A stretch of DNA of 64,000 nt, taken from NCBI RefSeq assembly GCF_040958095.1, contig NC_091198.1, positions 29,416,597 to 29,480,596 on the forward strand, in the 5' to 3' direction. This DNA comes from Procambarus clarkii (Eukaryota > Arthropoda > Malacostraca > Decapoda > Cambaridae). A model generated the notes under the pieces. The model was not told the DNA's origin and searched no databases. It was given only the letters and a program-made list of their open reading frames with translations. The position numbers and the translations under genes are program-made. Positions 1-28,023 of the stretch are shown here, in pieces; position 1 is the first letter of the stretch; the number at the start of each line of letters is the position of its first letter.

Positions 1-62
1 TTTGATGGTGCTACATAGCCTTCCCGGTTTGGTGCCTTCTTTTGATAATTACTTACTTACTT
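1..62 (+). mobile_element. 3' terminus of TTAC-tailed LINE (copy cut by window edge)
   Basis: The first ~55 bases match the 3' untranslated terminus that follows the RNase H ORF in LINE copies A (about 27961-28023) and B (about 31349-31412), ending in a short TTAC repeat. The 5' part lies outside the window, so its length is unknown. It abuts the AT-rich start of the tRNA-bearing satellite block. Confidence 0.8.
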
Positions 63-470: not shown

Positions 471-923
471 GGCGGTATTACAAGACAAGGTGTGATAGTG
501 TTAACATACAAGATGAAGCAGTAAGTATTTCAATACAACGTGTGGCAGTAAGTATTACAATACAAGGTTGAAGTGTTACAATATAAGGTGTGGCAGCATT
601 TGGTTTGCTACAGGATATGGCAGTAAGTGTTACAATAAAAAGTGAAGTAGTAAGTATTACAGTACAACGTGTGACAGTTACAATACAAGGTGTGGCAGTG
701 TTACAATACAAGGTGTGGCAGTGTTACAATACCAGGTGTGGCAGTGTTACAATACAAGGTGTGGCAGAAAGTTTTACAATACAAGGTGTGGCAGAAAGTT
801 TTACAATACATGGTGTGACAGTAAGTGTTACAACACAAGGTGTGGCAGTAAGTGTTACAATACAAGGTGTGGCAGTGTTACAACACAAGGTGTGGCAGTA
901 AGTGTTACAATACAAGGTGTAGC
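470..923 (+). repeat. 23-bp tandem array (with 27-bp variants), part 1a
   Basis: Tandem copies of a ~23-bp unit containing TTACAATACAAGGTGTGGCAG. Some units carry an extra TAAG (27 bp). Most are diverged at the left edge and more uniform from about 690. The array is broken at 923 by an LTR insertion and resumes at 4359. Apparent ORFs here are low-complexity by-products. Confidence 0.9.
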
Positions 924-1303
924 TGTTGGAAATAACCAACAGGTTTCATACATCCCTTGTATTTTTATACACCATCTTTGTATTAACTACAAGTAGTTAC
1001 TAAAATTACTAACATTGTAGAATTAACCAGAATAATATAACACTATGCAGTATTCTGCCAAATCTTTCCTAGTCTCCATGACGCCATGAAGTTGCGTCAG
1101 CCAGAAACAGGAAATATCTCTTTATTTGTTTGATCTAAACAGAGTCCCGTTAATTACTTTCCTTTACTAAGGATAATTGCTTAGTAATAAGTTTATTTAC
1201 GGAGCACATTACTGCTTACGGGAACTCGTTTATATAGTTAAAATTAGCCACTCCAGTGGAAATTATGAAAAGGTAAAATAATTCCACTTTATATTCCTTT
1301 CAT

Positions 1304-1316
1304 TTATTTACGCAGC
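1304..1316. repeat. Left target-site duplication of the chimeric retrocopy
   Basis: TTATTTACGCAGC, 13 bp, recurs exactly at 2595-2607, directly after a LINE 3' tail. This is the same length as the duplication flanking LINE copy D (13 bp). Confidence 0.8.
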
Positions 1317-1411
1317 GGTCTGCCCTTTTAACGCGTGATTCCTCCCTCCAGTGGTGAGTACCTCACTCTCCAGCTCCCTGGTGAGGCCGGTGAGGATAAG
1401 TGTGAAGTACA

Positions 1412-2014
1412 ATGAGGTCAGATCAGGTATACCAGCCCACCACCACCACACTGACCTATGACCGGAACAAGGCATGGGTCCCTTCCTTCCTGGCCCAGAG
1501 CTCCTCGGCAAGTTTATGGTCACGCACGCTGGTCTTGATCATCTCTGTCATGTTTGCAGTCATGGGAATGGTGATGATCATTGTTGGAGCAACGTCCTAT
1601 CAGTCCTTGGGGGAGACGGGGAAGGAAGTAAACAGTACAGCCTACATAATCATCCTTTGTTTAGGAGTGCTCCTGGAATTTGCTGCGATATTAGCCATTA
1701 TCTTCTATATGAGAAATATGGGATACTACATTCCTTGTTGTCCGGGCAAGATTGCACGTATCAGAAAACGTCTTCATGAAAACCAAATGATGGTCAATGG
1801 ACAGATGGTGAGCACGGGTGAACCAGTTTCGGCCCAGTACTGCCCTCCGGCACACCCTGGGGTCGGCAGCACTCCACCACCACCATACACTGATGTGTCA
1901 GAGGAACAACGACTCATGGAGGACAAGATTGATCTTGGTGGCGACACCGAACGCATCTTGGAAGAAGACCCACGTATTGTCTTGACTCCCCTCAAGCCTC
2001 ATGAGGAGTGTTAG
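1412..2014 (+). CDS. Two-pass membrane protein with PPxY tail, in a retrocopy (family not recognised)
   Basis: A 200-residue ORF that I cannot assign to a named family. The start is supported by an in-frame TGA at 1403-1405 just upstream and an A at -3. Visible features: a short polar N-terminus; a hydrophobic helix about 38-61; a short loop with an N-glycosylation sequon NST at 74-76; a second helix about 78-100; a CC pair at 109-110 that could be acylated; a basic stretch GKIARIRKR at 112-120; and a cytosolic tail with PPPPY at 155-159, a candidate WW-domain ligand, followed by an acidic region. Charge distribution suggests both ends are cytosolic. The ORF is unbroken although it sits in what looks like a retrocopy, so it is young, selected or the original gene. 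Expression is unknown. Confidence 0.65.
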   Translation: MRSDQVYQPTTTTLTYDRNKAWVPSFLAQSSSASLWSRTLVLIISVMFAVMGMVMIIVGATSYQSLGETGKEVNSTAYIIILCLGVLLEFAAILAIIFYMRNMGYYIPCCPGKIARIRKRLHENQMMVNGQMVSTGEPVSAQYCPPAHPGVGSTPPPPYTDVSEEQRLMEDKIDLGGDTERILEEDPRIVLTPLKPHEEC

Positions 2015-2552
2015 AACTTTCACCCAGTAATGTGTTTGGTAAACCCACCCTTACCACAACTCATTCTGGTTACTGAGTTGGTGGCTAGAGGATGGGAGTG
2101 ATAGCTGTGTCTGGCGTCTTTGCTCCTCTGGCCTCCACAGATACTTAAACACCAAGTCAGCTTGCCGAGTTGAGCTTGGGAGTCTACATTCACGACAAAG
2201 GAGGGAATCTTTGTGCTTAATGTAACTTGCATTCCCAATTTTTTAAGACTTTAATATCTGAACCAAAGGAAGTCAAAAAATCTGCCTAGGTAATGTAGTG
2301 TGTGCTATTCTGCATTCCATATTAACACTCCAGCAATGATGGACTACTTGAAATAATATTTTATCTTGTAAACTGCATGTCATAATGGCAATTTATTTTA
2401 AGTATAAAACCTTACTTCTAGGTTAGATATTCTAGTTATGGTAGGATAGTTGTTTTTTATTCATTATATGTAAATCCTGCCAGCTCTTTAAAGAATATAA
2501 GGCAAAAAGTCTCTATTCCAGTAAGACATAATTTGATTTAAACATACAGTAC

Positions 2553-2594
2553 TCCCGGTTTGGTGCCTTCTTTTGATAATTACCTTACCTTACC
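2553..2594 (+). mobile_element. LINE 3' terminus fused to the retrocopy
   Basis: This segment matches the last ~30 bases before the TTAC tail of LINE copies A and B (TCCCGGTTTGG through GATAATTA), then CCTTA repeats. No other LINE sequence precedes it. That makes it the diagnostic tail of the chimeric retrocopy. Confidence 0.8.
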
Positions 2595-2607
2595 TTATTT
2601 ACGCAGC
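2595..2607. repeat. Right target-site duplication of the chimeric retrocopy
   Basis: An exact 13-bp repeat of 1304-1316, immediately after the CCTTA tail. Confidence 0.8.
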
Positions 2608-2752
2608 TTTAATGAACTGACTTACGCAGCGAGAGGTTATATTGTAACATGGTACATTTAATTATGACATAAATATTCGTCACCATCTCTTCCTTCCCTA
2701 ATTAACTTCGAAATACATTCATTCATTTACGTTCGAGGTAGCTACCGAGAGC

Positions 2753-2764
2753 CGCGCATGCGCA
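2753..2764. promoter_or_regulatory. NRF1-like palindromic site inside LTR
   Basis: CGCGCATGCGCA matches the NRF1 consensus known from animal promoters. It sits in a locally GC-rich stretch (about 2735-2790) within the LTR at 924-4358, where promoter elements are expected. Function is inferred only from the motif. Confidence 0.35.
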
Positions 2765-3198
2765 ATCGGGGGAAGGAGGAAGGAGAAGCCAACAGAGGAT
2801 GAGTGGCATCCATCTTGCCAGAGTTAGTGTTGCAGAGCTCCCACTATAACGACTCATATTTACATCATCCTTGCAACAGCGGGTGCCAGAGTTCGTAGAT
2901 GTCTCCATCTACATTCAACACAAGTTCCGGGGAGCGTAATTTCTTTATTGTTCTACTGATGTTTGTTAATAAGTGCACTTTTTTAACATTTACGTGTAGG
3001 TTGCTCGTCGTCACGCCACGCGACAACATCATAACCAATGTTAGTTTCAATTAAGTCCAGGCTCCCACTTTTCAATCAGAAATAGTGGTATATTAACTCT
3101 AGGCTAGACAACTTTTACATTTACTCTTGCTTTCAGTTGGAGTGGTAGCGGCGAAAAGGAAGAATAACCTTTCATTCCATGTTCATGCTCGGCCAGCG

Positions 3199-3873
3199 CG
3201 TGTCAACACGTGTGCCGTCGTGGCTGCCCCACACAGCCAGTGTCAACACGTGTGCCGTCGTGACCGCCCCACACAGCGAGTGTCAACACGTGTGCCCTCG
3301 TGGCCGCCCCACACAGCGGGTGTCAACACGTGTGCCGTCGTGGCCGCCCCACACAGCGGGTGCCAACACGTGTGCCGTCGTGGCCGCCCCACACAGCGAG
3401 TGTCAACACGTGTGCCGTCGTGGCCGCCCCACACAGCGAGTGTCAACACGTGTGCCGTCGTGGCCGCCCCACACAGCGAGTGTCAACACGTGTGCCCTCG
3501 TGGCCGCCCCACACAGCGGGTGTCAACACGTGTGCCGTCGTGGCCGCCCCACACAGCGAGTGTCAACACGTGTGCCGTCGTGGCCGTCCCACACAGCGAG
3601 TGTCAACACGTGTGCCCTCGTGGCCGCCCCACACAGCCAGTGTCAACACGTGTGTCGTCGTGACCGCCCCACACAGCGAGTGTCAACACGTGTGCCCTCG
3701 TGACCGCCCCACACAGCGAGTGTCAACACGTGTGTCGTCGTGACCGCCCCACACAGCCAGTGTCAACACGTGTGTCGTCGTGACCGCCCCACACAGCGAG
3801 TGTCAACACGTGTGTCGTCGTGACCGCCCCACACAGCGGGTGTCAACACGTGTGCCGTCGTGGCCGCCCCACA
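3199..3873 (+). repeat. 40-bp minisatellite, 17 units, one CACGTG E-box per unit
   Basis: Units begin TGTCAACACGTGTG at 3201 and then every 40 bp to 3841, with few point differences (C/G in GCCSTCG, G/A in TGRCCGCC, CAG/GAG/GGG joins). 40 is not a multiple of three and the unit lacks stops in all three plus frames, so three overlapping repetitive ORFs appear. I treat these as non-coding by-products. The array lies inside the LTR and is absent from the related LTR at 62406. Confidence 0.92.
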
Positions 3874-4350
3874 CTTGTACAGCCAATTCAACTGAACAGC
3901 TAAGCTGGCCTTATATTTCTAGTAGTGTAGTATTTTTTAGTAGAATATTAACATTTACTCACATGAATGATTTCTATTGCAATTGCTATTTACTTATCAT
4001 TTATATTTGACATACATTATTTACTGATTCCATTTTATATCTTGATTATATGTGTATGTACTATAATATGAATTTGTACTTACATTTCTTTCTAATGAAG
4101 AACCAGCATTAGATTATTGGTGCTAGGACGTAATCGTTTCTTAGCGCCTGTACTTCCAAATTTGTGAAAGTGAATTTGACTCTTATTTCATGATAAAATA
4201 CAGTCCCATTAAAATCCATAGGACACTATTTCTTGGAATTAATATCAACCCACTTGCTCATTTTTTCCTTTTCCATTTTTTCACAATAAGTGGTGGTCCT
4301 TCGTAGCTATTGAAGTTTTCATTAATTAATTCAAATATTGGAGTCAGATA
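3874..4350 (+). repeat. 3' portion of the 924 LTR
   Basis: AT-rich sequence with no ORF. The part from about 4190 is alignable by eye to about 63830-64000: shared TACAGYCCATTAA, ATCCATAG(G)ACACT, and AAGTGG(T/A)-GGTCCTTCGTA followed by a CATTAATT run. This supports membership of one LTR family. Confidence 0.6.
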
Positions 4351-4358
4351 TTCCCACA

Positions 4359-4520
4359 GTAGCAGTGTTACAATACGATGTGTGTCAGTGTTACAAAACA
4401 TGGTCTGGCAGTGAGTGTTACAAAACACAGTCTGGCAGTGAGTGTTTCAAAACACAGTCTGGCAGTGAGTGTTTCAAAACAATGTGTGTCAGTAAGTGTT
4501 ACAATTGACGGAGTGGTAGT
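4359..4520 (+). repeat. 23-bp tandem array, part 1b
   Basis: Continuation of the 470-923 array after the LTR insertion. Diverged units here contain TTACAAAACA or TTTCAAAACA and a TCTGGCAGTGAG join. Confidence 0.8.
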
Positions 4521-4767: not shown

Positions 4768-5160
4768 TTACAATACTTATTCATTAATTTTTTAATAGAA
4801 TAAATGGGTCAATTTTGTTAATTCATTGTGAACTAAGTAAATGTAAAATTATCATGACAGTGAAGGCGTAATAAAGTTCTTCTTATACGCTATAATTAGC
4901 TGAATTTACTTTTACACATTTACAAATACTTTAGTGAAGATAATGTAAAATAATAATCAGTAAATTTATCTGGGTGTAAATTTAGCTGGAGAGAAAAAGG
5001 CTCCGCCAGGAGTTGAACCTGAGTCTGCCACTTTAGAGGCGGCCGTGCTGACCGCTGCACCACAGAGCCGGGCTCTGGAATTATTATGTTTATTATATAA
5101 ATGTTGCGGACATAATGGTTATATAAATATGATAAATGATCATGAGTTACAAGCAGTGAC
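4768..5160. repeat. AT-rich tRNA-bearing block, copy 2
   Basis: A diverged copy of 58-470, starting TTTTACAATACTTATTC and including the second tRNA-like gene. A third, truncated lead is at about 6511-6580. Confidence 0.7.
4999..5069 (-). tRNA. tRNA-like gene, anticodon CTA (suppressor-type), copy 2
   Basis: This matches the 251-321 gene except for one change in the 3' acceptor strand (CGGAGCC for CAGAGCC), which swaps a U-A pair for U-G and keeps the stem. The anticodon loop CTCTAAA and both internal promoter boxes are unchanged. Conservation of the fold while surrounding sequence has drifted is suggestive but not proof of function. Confidence 0.7.
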
Positions 5161-5600
5161 GGTAAATATTACAATTCAAGGTGTGACAGTGTTACAATAC
5201 AAGGTGTGACAGTGTTACAATACAAGGTGTGACAGAGTTACAATACAAGGTGTGACAGTGTTACAATACAAGGTGTGACAGTGTTACAATACAAGGTGTG
5301 ACAGTGTTACAATACAAGGTGTGGCAGTAAGTTTTACAATACAAGGTGTGGCAGAGTTTCAATACAAGGTGTGGCAGTGTTACAATACAAGGTGTGGCAG
5401 TGTTACAATACAAGGTGTGGCAGAGTTTCAATACAAGGTGTGGCAGTGTTACAATACAAGGTGTGGCAGTGTTACAATACAAGGTGTGGCAGTGTTACAA
5501 TACAAGGTGTGGCAGTGTTACAATACAAGGTGTGGCAGAACTATAACAATACAAAGTGTGACAGTAAGTCTTAAAATTCAACGAGTAGCATAGTTACAAT
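5160..5600 (+). repeat. 23-bp tandem array, part 2 (CAATACAAGG type)
   Basis: About eighteen near-identical 23-bp units of the same family as 470-923, with GTGACAG units on the left and GTGGCAG units on the right. Confidence 0.9.
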
Positions 5601-6310
5601 ACAAGACGCAGCAGTAAGTGTTACAGTACTAATAATGGTAGTGTTGCAGTACAAATTGTGGCAGTGTTACAGTACTAATTGTGGCAGGGTTACAGTACTA
5701 ATTGTGGCAGTGTTACAGTACTAATTGTGGCAGTGTTACAGTACTAATTGTGGCAGTGTTACAGTACTAATTGTGGCAGGGTTACAGTACTAATTGTGGC
5801 AGGGTTACAGTACTAATTGTGGCAGTGTTATAGTAGAAGGTCTGGCAGTGTGACAGTACTAATTGTGGCAGTGTTACAGTACTAATTTTGGCAGTGTTAC
5901 AGTACTAATTGTGGCAGTGTTACAGTACTAATTGTGGCAGTGTTACAGTACTAATTGTGGCAGGGTTACAGTACTAATTGTGGCAGTGTTACAGTACTAA
6001 TTGTGGCAGTGTTACAGTACTAATTGTGGCAGTGTTACAGTACTAATTGTGGCAGTGTTACAGTACTAATTGTTGCAGTGTTACAGTACTAATTGTTGCT
6101 GTGTTATAGTACAAGATGCGGCAGTGTTATAGTAGAAGGTCTGGCAGTGTGACAGTACTAATTGTGGCAGTGTTACAGTACTAATTTTGGCGGTGCTATA
6201 GTACAAATTGAAGCAGTGTTACAGTACTAATTGTGGCGGTGTTACAGTACTAATTGTGGCGGTGTTACAGTACTAATTGTGGCGGTGTTACAGTACTAAT
6301 TGTGGCGGTG
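5600..6310 (+). repeat. 23-bp tandem array, CAGTACTAATT type
   Basis: About thirty units of a related 23-bp repeat, TGTTACAGTACTAATTGTGG plus CAG, with local variants (GGGTT, TTGCAG, GGCGG). The same period and flanks as the preceding array imply one family with two homogenised subtypes. Confidence 0.9.
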
Positions 6311-24655: not shown

Positions 24656-25718
24656 TCAACTAGTTAATGAAACCAAGGTATTAAACAACAATTGGTTTTT
24701 GTTTGTTATACCGAGGACAAACTATCGGTGACAAATACACTTCAGGTAAATAAATTTCCCTCGTAATAGACATAATTAAATGAAGTTATTTTTAACAAAC
24801 ATGACCTTAAATATTTCAGCAGAACATTGGAACAAAATATATCTGAACATTTCAGCAGATTTATTTTGTATAATAATGTGTTGAAGGTTACAATATGGAG
24901 GGAACCACCTATGGTCTTATTGCACAAGTGGGTGAGGAACATTTTGTATAATGTATTGAAGAGTAAAATATGATGGGGAACACTTATGGTCTTATTGCAC
25001 AAGTGGGTGAAAATACCAGCAACCATATTGTTTATATATCAAATTTTTATCTCTGAAAACAATAAGAGACATTCCAACAGTTTTGGATGCAAATAATTAA
25101 AACCAAACAAATTAACTGAATATATTGCATATTTATCCTTTAAAAAAATAATCGTTTACAGCCAATTTTACAAAATATATATCACTTCTGCTAAAGGAAC
25201 TCAAAAGTTTCACTGAATATTACAAATAAACTTTCTTCAGAAAAGGTTGAAAGGTTGAACATAAGACTACTACATTAACATGTATTTATTAATAAGATAC
25301 ATGCAATGCTGCTTTTGTTTACCAAAATGTCAAACATTTTAATATTTTTGCAGTCATTGATAATTTAGTCCTCGCTATTTCTTTAGTTTAATTCTTTAAC
25401 GATGCTTATATATAAGATTATTGTACTAAAGTGAATTTATTATTTCCATTGAGAAAATTATATCCTCATTCTTTAAAGGTTGATAAAATTGGACTTTATT
25501 CTGACAAAAAACTAAGGTGAGAAACTTATCTTTCATAAGCCTGCTTCTAGCTAGCAGATGTTTGTCCATTTTCTTCTGAAAATTTCTTTCTTGGTAAGTT
25601 CTTCCTTCATTCTCGTCAAACTCTTCAACCTAAACAATCTTGGACAATATCTTATCCAATGTTAAGCGAACAGCACACCTGAAAAATATACAAATCGGGC
25701 TACATTTCATAACATATA
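24656..25718. other. AT-rich spacer with a ~75-bp duplication
   Basis: No gene seen. A tandem duplication covers about 24865-25013, with each copy containing TATGGTCTTATTGCACAAGT. Confidence 0.6.
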
Positions 25719-28023
25719 CTGTTCGCAAACCGGGGTCTCTGGGTACTTCCCCTAAGGACTTTCGCCCTATTGCTCTCACAAGTTGTGTCTGCAAACTCTT
25801 TGAACGTATGGTTAACGTTCGTCTGATGTGGTTCCTGGAACACCATCACCTCCTCTCCCCTTCTCAATTTGGTTTCCGCAAGTGCCGCAGCACGACAGAT
25901 GTCCTGGTGAACTTGGAGGTCTATATTCGTACTGCTTTTGCTGCGAAGACCTCCGTTGTTGCCGTCCTTTTTGACCTAGAAAAGGCTTACGACACCACTT
26001 GGCGTTATCATATCCTATCTCAACTTCATTCTTTTGGCCTTCGTGGTCATCTCCCTCTCTTTCTCCGCAGCTTCCTCTCTCGTCGTTCCTTTCGGGTGCG
26101 CCTTGGTACCGCTCTCTCTCTCCCTCTTTTCAGCAATACGAAGGTGTGCCCCAGGGTAGTGTTCTGAGCACTACTCTTTTTCTGGTTGCCCTCAATGGTC
26201 TTCTTTCCTCTCTTCCTTCTGGTGTCTTCTCCGCTCTCTATGTCGATGATCTTACCCTTTGTTGTCAGGGTGATGATTCGCCTCTCCTTCAACGCCGGCT
26301 TCAACTTGCAATTGATGCCGTGTCGTCTTGGGCCACAGGTCATGGCTTCAAGTTCTCTACTTCTAAGACTTGTGCCATGACTTTTACGCGGAAACGGGTT
26401 GTTCTTCGTCCCTCTTTGTCACTTTATGGTCATCCCCTTGAATACAAAGATTCCGCGAAGCTTTTGGGGTTATTCCTTGACACTCGTTTGTCTTGGTCTC
26501 CCCATATCTCTTACCTCCGTGTTGAGTGCTCTAAGGCCCTTACCCTCCTTCGGGTCTTGTCCCATACTTCTTGGGGGGCAGATAGGCGCACTCTCCTTGC
26601 TTTACATTCCTCTCTCGTCCTGTCTAAGCTCGATTATGGTTGCCCTGCTTACTCGTCTGCTTCTCCTTCTACTCTTCGCCGTCTTGATGCTTTGCACCAT
26701 ACTGGGTTGCGCCTCAGTTCTGGTGCCTTTCGTTCGACTCCCATCCTTAGCTTGTATGTTGACACTGGCTTCCTGTCTCTCCAGGACCGCCGTGATCGCT
26801 ACTGTCTTCGCTATCTTGCGCGGTCCTTGCAACATCCTTCCTCTCGCCTCTGTCGTGCTTTAACTTTTACCCCTCCTGTGGTTCCTGTTCCTCTTCACCA
26901 CCTCCCTCTTTCTGTCCGGTTATCTCGCCTACAGGATTCTCTTTCCTTTCGTATTTCTGATGTTTCTCCTCGTGTTGTTCCTTCTTTGCCCCCGTGGAGG
27001 GTCCCTCTTCCGCGGTTTTGTACATCCTTGACTCGTATCACTAAAGCTTTTACCCCTCCTACGGTTCTAAAACGCCTTTTCCTCAAGCAATTTTCTTCTC
27101 ACTCCCGCTCCGTTTCTGTCTTCACCGATGGGTCTAAGTCAGCGGACGGTGTTGGCTACTCTGTTGTTTTTCCTGATCGCACTTATATGTGTCGCTTGCC
27201 TCCGGAGACTAGCATCTTTACAGTGGAACTTTATGCTATTCTCTCTGCTCTTCGTCTCCTGCTTTCTCGTTGTCAGTCTTCCTTTGTGGTTGTTGTTGAC
27301 TCTCGTAGTGCCCTCATGGCTCTCGGGTGCTTTAATCCAGTTCATCCAGTAGTTGTCGAGATCCAGCATTGGCTGTTTCTCGTTCACAGTAAATTTAAGT
27401 CGGTTGAGTTTTGTTGGGTTCCCAGCCATATTGGCGTGTCTTTAAATGAGCGTGCGGATGCTGCCGCTAAGGAAGCTGTCCGCTCTTGTCCCATCTCTCG
27501 TAAAGGCATTCCGTATTCCGACTTTTACCCGGTTATCCATTCCTCAGTCCCTACCCATTGGCAGGCTTCTTGGTTGTCTGTTACTGGTAACAAGCTACGT
27601 ACTCTTAAATGTTGTGTTTCCTCGTGGCTGTCCTCCTTCCACCGTAACCGGCGGTGGGAAACAGCTCTGGCGAGGTTGCGTATTGGCCATACTCGCTTAA
27701 CCCATGGTCACTTGATGGAGCGCCGCCCTGCTCCTTATTGTCCTAGTTGCATTGTCCCTCTTACGGTCGTGCATGTCCTTCTTGAATGTCCTGACTTCCA
27801 GGACGAGCGTGTGTCTTGCTTTCCGACCGCCCCTCGCGGTCACCTGTCCCTCGATAGAATTCTTGGTGACTCTGATACTTTTGATATCGTTCGCCTTATG
27901 CGTTTTTGTTCTCGTATTGGCATCCTTGGTGATATTTAGCGCCCTCTGATTATTTTGCGTATTTGATGGTGCTACATAGCCTTCCCGGTTTGGTGCCTTC
28001 TTTTGATAATTACTTACTTACTT
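25719..28023 (+). mobile_element. LINE copy A (TTAC family), 5'-truncated
   Basis: Homology to copy B starts abruptly at CTGTTCGCAAACC (about 25719), inside the reverse transcriptase, and runs to the 3' terminus with a TTAC tail at about 28023. The 5' truncation is typical of target-primed reverse transcription. It carries the longest LINE ORF in the window. Confidence 0.88.
25731..27939 (+). pseudogene. LINE ORF2: reverse transcriptase and RNase H (one frameshift)
   Basis: The N-terminal part reads to 26167 in one frame (FRPIALTS, AVLFDLEKAYD = motif A). It continues from about 26130 to 27939 in another: GVPQGSVLS, LYVDDLTL with intact catalytic YVDD, then RNase H with VFTDGSKS, VELYAIL, VVDSRSAL and NERADAAAKEA (all acidic residues present), and a C-terminal Cys/His pattern CPSCIVPLTVVHVLLECP. 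The frame switch lies in a CT-repeat where copy A has two more bases than copy B (near 26112-26133). Domain order endonuclease-RT-RNase H places it with the RNase H-bearing LINE clades (I/Jockey group). Without its 5' end it cannot be autonomous. Confidence 0.85.

Follow-up and report, generated by a model that had tools for sequence, protein, structure and literature searches.

The stretch of DNA analyzed here (the window) comprises 64,000 nucleotides at C49:29416597-29480596. Near its left end it contains a processed copy of a protein-coding gene that is closed on its 3' side by the terminus of a LINE and enclosed by a target-site duplication (TSD). The insert interrupts an LTR, and the gene from which it was copied is located on C50. 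The features of the two loci are as follows.

919..923, no strand assigned: left 5-bp TSD (GTAGC) of the host LTR, read from the sequence; right copy at 4359-4363
924..4358, no strand assigned: host LTR with TG...CA ends, interrupted by the retrogene; bounded by the ends of the matching pieces in its relatives and by direct reading of the sequence
1304..1316, + strand: left 13-bp TSD of the retrogene (TTATTTACGCAGC), an exact repeat of 2595-2607 and single-copy in relatives of the target
1317..1317, + strand: extra G, present in neither the parent nor the target relatives
1318..2552, + strand: processed copy of the C50 gene, with seven parental exons and six GT-AG introns absent
After 1395, 1570, 1713, 1804, 1938 and 2059, + strand: exon joins in the processed copy, from alignment with the C50 parent
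1412..2014, + strand: intact ORF of 200 codons; residues 32-64 and 72-104 each contain a hydrophobic segment, and a PPPPY motif is present (by eye)
2015..2552, + strand: section of the parent's 3' UTR, from the parent alignment; the join after 2059 shows that this UTR was itself spliced
2553..2594, + strand: LINE 3' end of 31 nt plus CTTAC-type tail repeats; the 31 nt recur unchanged in LINE copies of the window and in the one that lies downstream of the parent
2595..2607, + strand: right 13-bp TSD of the retrogene, from the sequence; single-copy in the relatives
4359..4363, no strand assigned: right 5-bp TSD (GTAGC) of the host LTR, from the sequence
25640..28020, + strand: LINE reference copy in which pieces of reverse transcriptase and RNase H precede the same tail; its reading frame is broken
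C50:9340261-9352566, sense with the downstream LINE copy: parent gene with seven exons, from genome search and alignment
C50:9353650-9353688, sense: last 39 nt of the parental LINE copy, which is 5'-truncated and ~180 bp in all

Searching the 4.03-Gb genome with the DNA of 1317-2552 returned eight matches, which correspond to the locus itself and the seven exons of one gene on C50. The protein search returned six, namely the retrocopy and five exons of the same gene; DNA and protein searches alike identify one parent and one retrocopy. The intron-containing parent that the sequence-only reading had called for is thus present. The parent has a GT...AG intron at every one of the six exon boundaries, and all six introns are missing from the copy, including one that the scripted comparison with the spliced parent places in the parental 3' UTR. 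Alignment to the parent starts at 1318, one base after the start of 1317 proposed earlier. The remaining base is the extra G, and additional 5' bases of this type are known to result from copying of the cap or from untemplated addition; we take the G at the insert's 5' end to be either untemplated or cap-derived. Comparison of the copy with the spliced parent reveals 17 differences: 15 substitutions (1.2% divergence over ~1,235 bp), the additional G (1317), and the loss of one base from a run of T residues.

The ORF, described previously as free of visible damage, is indeed intact. It has acquired four changes relative to the parent, three of them silent and the fourth a single amino-acid replacement (D177G). 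The rates of substitution in coding sequence (4/603) and UTR (11/631) do not differ significantly (Fisher P = 0.12). No Pfam family matches the ORF above the cut-off and the PDB search names none, the matches returned being below cut-off or weak.

The boundaries of the insert agree with the earlier description. The 13-bp direct repeats are exact at 1304-1316 and 2595-2607, and this single pair encloses both the mRNA-derived part and the LINE 3' end that closes the insert, as expected of a LINE-mediated chimera. The joint, which had been placed at about 2553 and said to involve the last ~30 bases of the LINE plus its tail, lies at 2552/2553 and is followed by the last 31 nt and the tail repeats. 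The 3' poly(A) typical of processed retrogenes is absent at 2552/2553, as had also been noted; the LINE tail occupies its place.

The host element is probably a solo LTR. Its relatives were collected by querying with the sequence around the 3' junction, and 40 of 357 candidates, the window included, were scored; these yielded 30 loci, and the 29 outside the window were examined. Among pieces longer than 60 bp, the match begins at 924 in 18 of the 29 and ends at 4358 in 13, the loci being only ~3.1 kb long. When the flanks of the insert are joined, 28 of the 29 relatives align in one piece across the site and carry a single copy of the 13-bp target, in some cases with small changes, which bears out the empty site that the sequence-only reading had expected in related LTRs. 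The sole split relative (L033) has 87 bases of other sequence at the site, and none of the 29 has a listed match to the body of the retrogene. The 28 contiguous relatives are 82-90% identical to the joined flanks, as compared with the 1.2% that separates retrogene from parent; the insert is a young one within an older LTR family.

Two other features of this region were observed. A 40-bp minisatellite inside the host LTR (~3194-3874) is skipped by the match in 15 of the 29 relatives and looks like an expansion in the window copy. Flanking the LTR on either side are stretches that are 82% alike (102-913 and 4849-5629), each with a tRNA-like segment (by eye, ~241-325 and ~4985-5070) and minisatellite repeats of the ACAATACAAGGTGTGGCAGTGTT type.

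The precise loss of introns relative to an existing parent, together with a TSD and an empty target site, is what a processed retrogene should exhibit. Ordinary duplication at the DNA level, an assembly artefact or chance resemblance is exceedingly improbable: the loss of six introns, the exact TSD, the empty site in relatives, and the LINE tail at the right end all speak against it, and nothing was found in its favor. The insert is a real, well-bounded LINE-tailed retrogene. The earlier description, that of a chimeric retrogene mobilised by a LINE and still encoding an intact membrane protein, is supported on the points examined: the parent, the precise intron loss, the TSD, the empty site, the LINE tail, and the intact ORF with its two hydrophobic segments. 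It belongs to a known kind and represents a new variant, one that provides a new clue to how the mRNA was chosen.

The LINE that contributed the 3' end is represented in the window by a copy in which RVT_1 and RNase_H score above cut-off in pieces; on account of its RNase H, we presume that it belongs to the I-like group. Its tail is of the TTAC type. The first 31 nt of 2553-2594 match without a difference the 3' ends of two LINE copies in the window, at 27984 and 31373. The CTTAC repeats of the retrogene differ from the TTAC repeats of the parental copy.

Other LINE termini in the genome are broken at or near the same position. A pattern search for breaks at CCCGG returned 12 matches with 8 distinct five-base fronts; judged by their flanks, the 12 matches represent nine events. 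The break 3 nt away gave 26 matches with 9 distinct fronts; the patterns detect only breaks preceded by five non-LINE letters, so that both counts are partial, and events were counted by flanks at CCCGG only. On these figures, a truncation hot spot at CCCGG, at first suspected because stubs and rearranged copies begin at this point, was rejected. Four of the nine events are rearranged LINE copies rather than truncations (L041, L042, L043, L051), and L045 has no convincing TSD. Three others (L044, L046, L048) are LINE stubs that begin within one base of the retrogene's LINE breakpoint and have TSDs of their own; therefore, the LINE machinery makes such insertions. In one of the rearranged copies, L051, an internal segment of the LINE ORF meets the tail no more than one base from this breakpoint. 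The joint may reflect either a jump or a later deletion; joins of distant LINE parts to the tail thus do occur in this genome.

A hairpin that might cause pausing at the breakpoint was also considered and rejected: the LINE end folds no better than shuffled sequences (z = 0.11 and -0.31). Taken by itself, the 42-nt tail of the retrogene is more stably folded than most of the shuffled sequences (z = -2.9), a value that we do not use as an argument. Two sets of stubs appear to have multiplied after insertion. The repeat family L047/L049/L050/L052 carries a LINE stub of ~30 bp surrounded in all four copies by an identical 15-17-bp TSD, which looks like a minimal LINE insertion amplified later with its host repeat. 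Within C6:43439944-44133336, a stub with the identical five bases in front occurs 11 times, 46-119 kb apart and always on the minus strand; these stubs were probably amplified within a large array or by segmental duplications.

When the retrogene was aligned to a 17-kb region around its parent, an eighth match emerged, which is the LINE tail on the same strand. It starts 1,091 bp past the last parental base of the retrogene, and no other tail (up to 5 errors) is present in these 17 kb. This sense LINE tail at the parental locus is a new clue, absent from the sequence-only reading, which had expected the parent to lack 2553-2594. That expectation is correct to the extent that the tail is not contiguous with 2552, as is required of a chimera assembled from noncontiguous parts; yet the same tail is present 1,091 bp further downstream on C50. 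The parental LINE copy has its own imperfect TSD, TATCCCAA[G/A]TAG (by eye). Its divergence from the two long LINEs in the window is 5.6% (144 bp) for one and 9.6% (187 bp) for the other; L042 was left out of this comparison. Set against the 1.2% between retrogene and parent, these values hint only weakly that the parental copy is older than the retrogene, since LINE divergence does not provide a date: the last 59 bp of the parental copy are identical to the LINE end at window positions 1-59.

How often would a sense tail lie so close by chance? The last 39 nt of the LINE occur exactly 7047 times in the 4.03 Gb (3479 forward and 3568 reverse) and, when as many as 3 mismatches are allowed, 15912 times (7904 forward and 8008 reverse), that is, once per 1.14 Mb (exact) or 0.51 Mb (<=3 mismatches) per strand. 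Under uniform placement, the probability of a sense-strand tail within 1,130 nt is P = 0.0010 to 0.0022; if, viewed post hoc, a sense tail at any position within the gene or the 5 kb that follow it had counted, P = 0.015-0.034. These odds rest on the whole-genome pattern counts and not on the density in fetched loci, which include the LINE-rich window. Spacing of the tails is uneven, and this clustering weakens the odds: the window alone contains three exact 39-mers in 64 kb, compared to ~0.1 expected.

Because a sense LINE tail lies 1.1 kb beyond the junction in the parent, one RNA could supply both parts of the chimera. We consider it fairly probable, and favor it over a switch between separate RNAs, that the gene's own read-through transcript was mobilized via the parental LINE tail, with loss of 1,091 nt. 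According to this model, the transcript of the C50 gene would run past its usual end into the 5'-truncated sense LINE copy and so gain a LINE 3' tail, and it would be spliced and capped. The LINE endonuclease and reverse transcriptase would mistake this tail for their own and nick the old LTR on C49, and target-primed reverse transcription would begin at the tail. After ~31 nt, the enzyme may have skipped 1,091 nt in the upstream direction without leaving this RNA; alternatively, those bases may have been deleted later. It would then have copied the 3' UTR, the ORF, and the 5' UTR up to the capped end, and the insert would have been sealed with its 13-bp TSD.

Several observations bear on the steps of this model. 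The first AATAAA after the stop codon is 844 bp beyond the junction, between the junction and the parental LINE tail. The junction therefore falls within the predicted parental 3' UTR; for the same reason, the model requires read-through of some 240 bp past the AATAAA, an assumed event that constitutes its weakest step. The shared 31 nt are a common sequence of the LINE family, identical in both possible sources, and name neither. The mismatch between the CTTAC repeats and the parental TTAC repeats counts against a source in cis, as do the continued need for a jump or deletion and the reliance on a single case.

The sequence-only reading had the LINE reverse transcriptase switch from its own RNA to a separate mRNA: synthesis would start on LINE RNA and, after ~31 nt, cross over into the 3' part of the parental mRNA, running on to the cap. 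With a sense tail 1.1 kb from the junction in the parent, this is no longer the best explanation, and we rate it as less than likely, though a serious rival. It accounts equally well for the insert structure and TSD. Switches from LINE RNA to other RNA are described for Magnaporthe MGL (PMC2104539), R2 (PMC3414825), and mammalian L1 (PMC13174262). Moreover, extreme LINE truncations with TSDs do occur within one base of the breakpoint (L044, L046, L048, and the L047/L049/L050/L052 family). Nonetheless, such a switch renders the sense tail just downstream of the parent a coincidence (P ~0.001-0.03). The breakpoint is also no special stop for the enzyme, with 8 distinct fronts versus 9 at the break 3 nt away, and joins of poly(A) to the tail numbered zero in a search with one narrow pattern covering few neighboring breakpoints.

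The chimera could instead have existed as RNA before reverse transcription, through a splice that linked the parental 3' UTR with the LINE copy downstream of it or through RNA ligation. Both parts do lie on C50 in the right order and orientation, and 6 of 17 human L1-mRNA chimeras end exactly at splice donors (PMC13174262). However, the putative intron would have AG...CT ends and the junction allows no GT-AG placement; splicing at 2552/2553 was rejected on this basis, although loss of one CAGTA unit beside the joint could shift the junction by a base. We regard a pre-formed chimeric RNA as very unlikely.

A very small search for a second LINE-tailed retrogene, confined to the cyclophilin family (148 matches; 150 of 330 candidates scored; 30 loci checked for tails), found none. 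Three cyclophilin loci had tail matches, of which L055 is diverged and L065 and L066 are poor; the tail at L055 is ~240 bases before an exon-sized match in what appears to be a split gene, with L071 ~2 kb away. The best cyclophilin match among those listed, L053, opens with what looks, by eye, like a splice acceptor, and it showed no tail. About 100 of the 148 listed matches are weak (~30-45 bits) and fall in nearly full-length ORFs, mostly of 170-193 codons without stops, that are crowded on a few contigs (C35, C37, C38, C14, C15, C17, C55, and others); they represent an amplified family, which is perhaps part of a mobile or viral element. Separately, a genome search for the crustacean neurohormone family PF01147, relatives of which are found in insects, gave 9 matches and makes a crustacean source of the genome probable. 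Five neurohormone-like exons are located ~13-15 kb apart in C37:10181571-10237901, four with equal scores and one on the opposite strand, and have the appearance of a recent gene cluster. A limited literature search of titles and opening lines of abstracts brought up no protein-coding retrogene with a LINE tail, either from crustaceans or attributed to a LINE that bears RNase H.

The LINE for which the formation of retrogenes has its best explanation is L1, whose substrates are poly(A) RNAs. Most LINEs are held to be stringent and to work only with a 3' tail of their own (PMC3747384, PMC4176376). Such LINEs raise the question of how the genomes they run make retrogenes, and the window case provides a testable answer. 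On balance, we lean slightly toward the view that a tail-requiring LINE, although it should not accept poly(A) mRNAs, can still make retrogenes when a LINE copy just downstream of a gene turns its read-through transcript into a SINE-like substrate in cis. If this is true, genes closely followed by a LINE tail in sense orientation should be enriched among the parents of LINE-tailed retrogenes.

SINEs form multicopy families of short elements that bear a promoter, whereas the window holds a one-off protein-coding mRNA. In SINE/LINE pairs with shared tails, such as UnaSINE/UnaL2, a foreign RNA moves via a LINE 3' tail, and we suspect the same logic here (PMC3747384, PMC4176376). For R2, template jumps and SIDEs have been proposed to link the 3' tail with distant sequence, as may have happened for the window insert; R2 is site-specific, and its jump partners are R2 5' ends, snRNA, and tRNA (PMC3414825). 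L1-like retrocopies with poly(A) are described in dicots (PMC4838847).

The MGL LINE of Magnaporthe grisea makes chimeric retrogenes that offer a close likeness: another transcript is fused 5' to the LINE 3' end, direct repeats flank the tripartite element, and no homology was found at the joints (PMC2104539). The MGL part measures 230-5461 nt, as opposed to 31 nt plus repeats here, and its named partners are WEIRD RNA and Mg-SINE rather than a nearly complete spliced protein-coding mRNA; the joint motif GCC*A/U lies near, but not at, the window junction (GCCT before the joint, TCCC after it) (PMC2104539). Mammalian L1-mRNA chimeras share the placement of sense mRNA 5' of the LINE and the TSDs (PMC13174262). 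They mostly combine the start of a transcript with a nearly full-length L1, whereas the window insert combines nearly a whole mRNA with a tiny LINE end and no poly(A). Finally, 15 of 17 of the gene loci that gave rise to the L1 chimeras are without intronic LINE-1 (PMC13174262); in contrast, the locus that produced the window retrogene has a LINE tail of its own.
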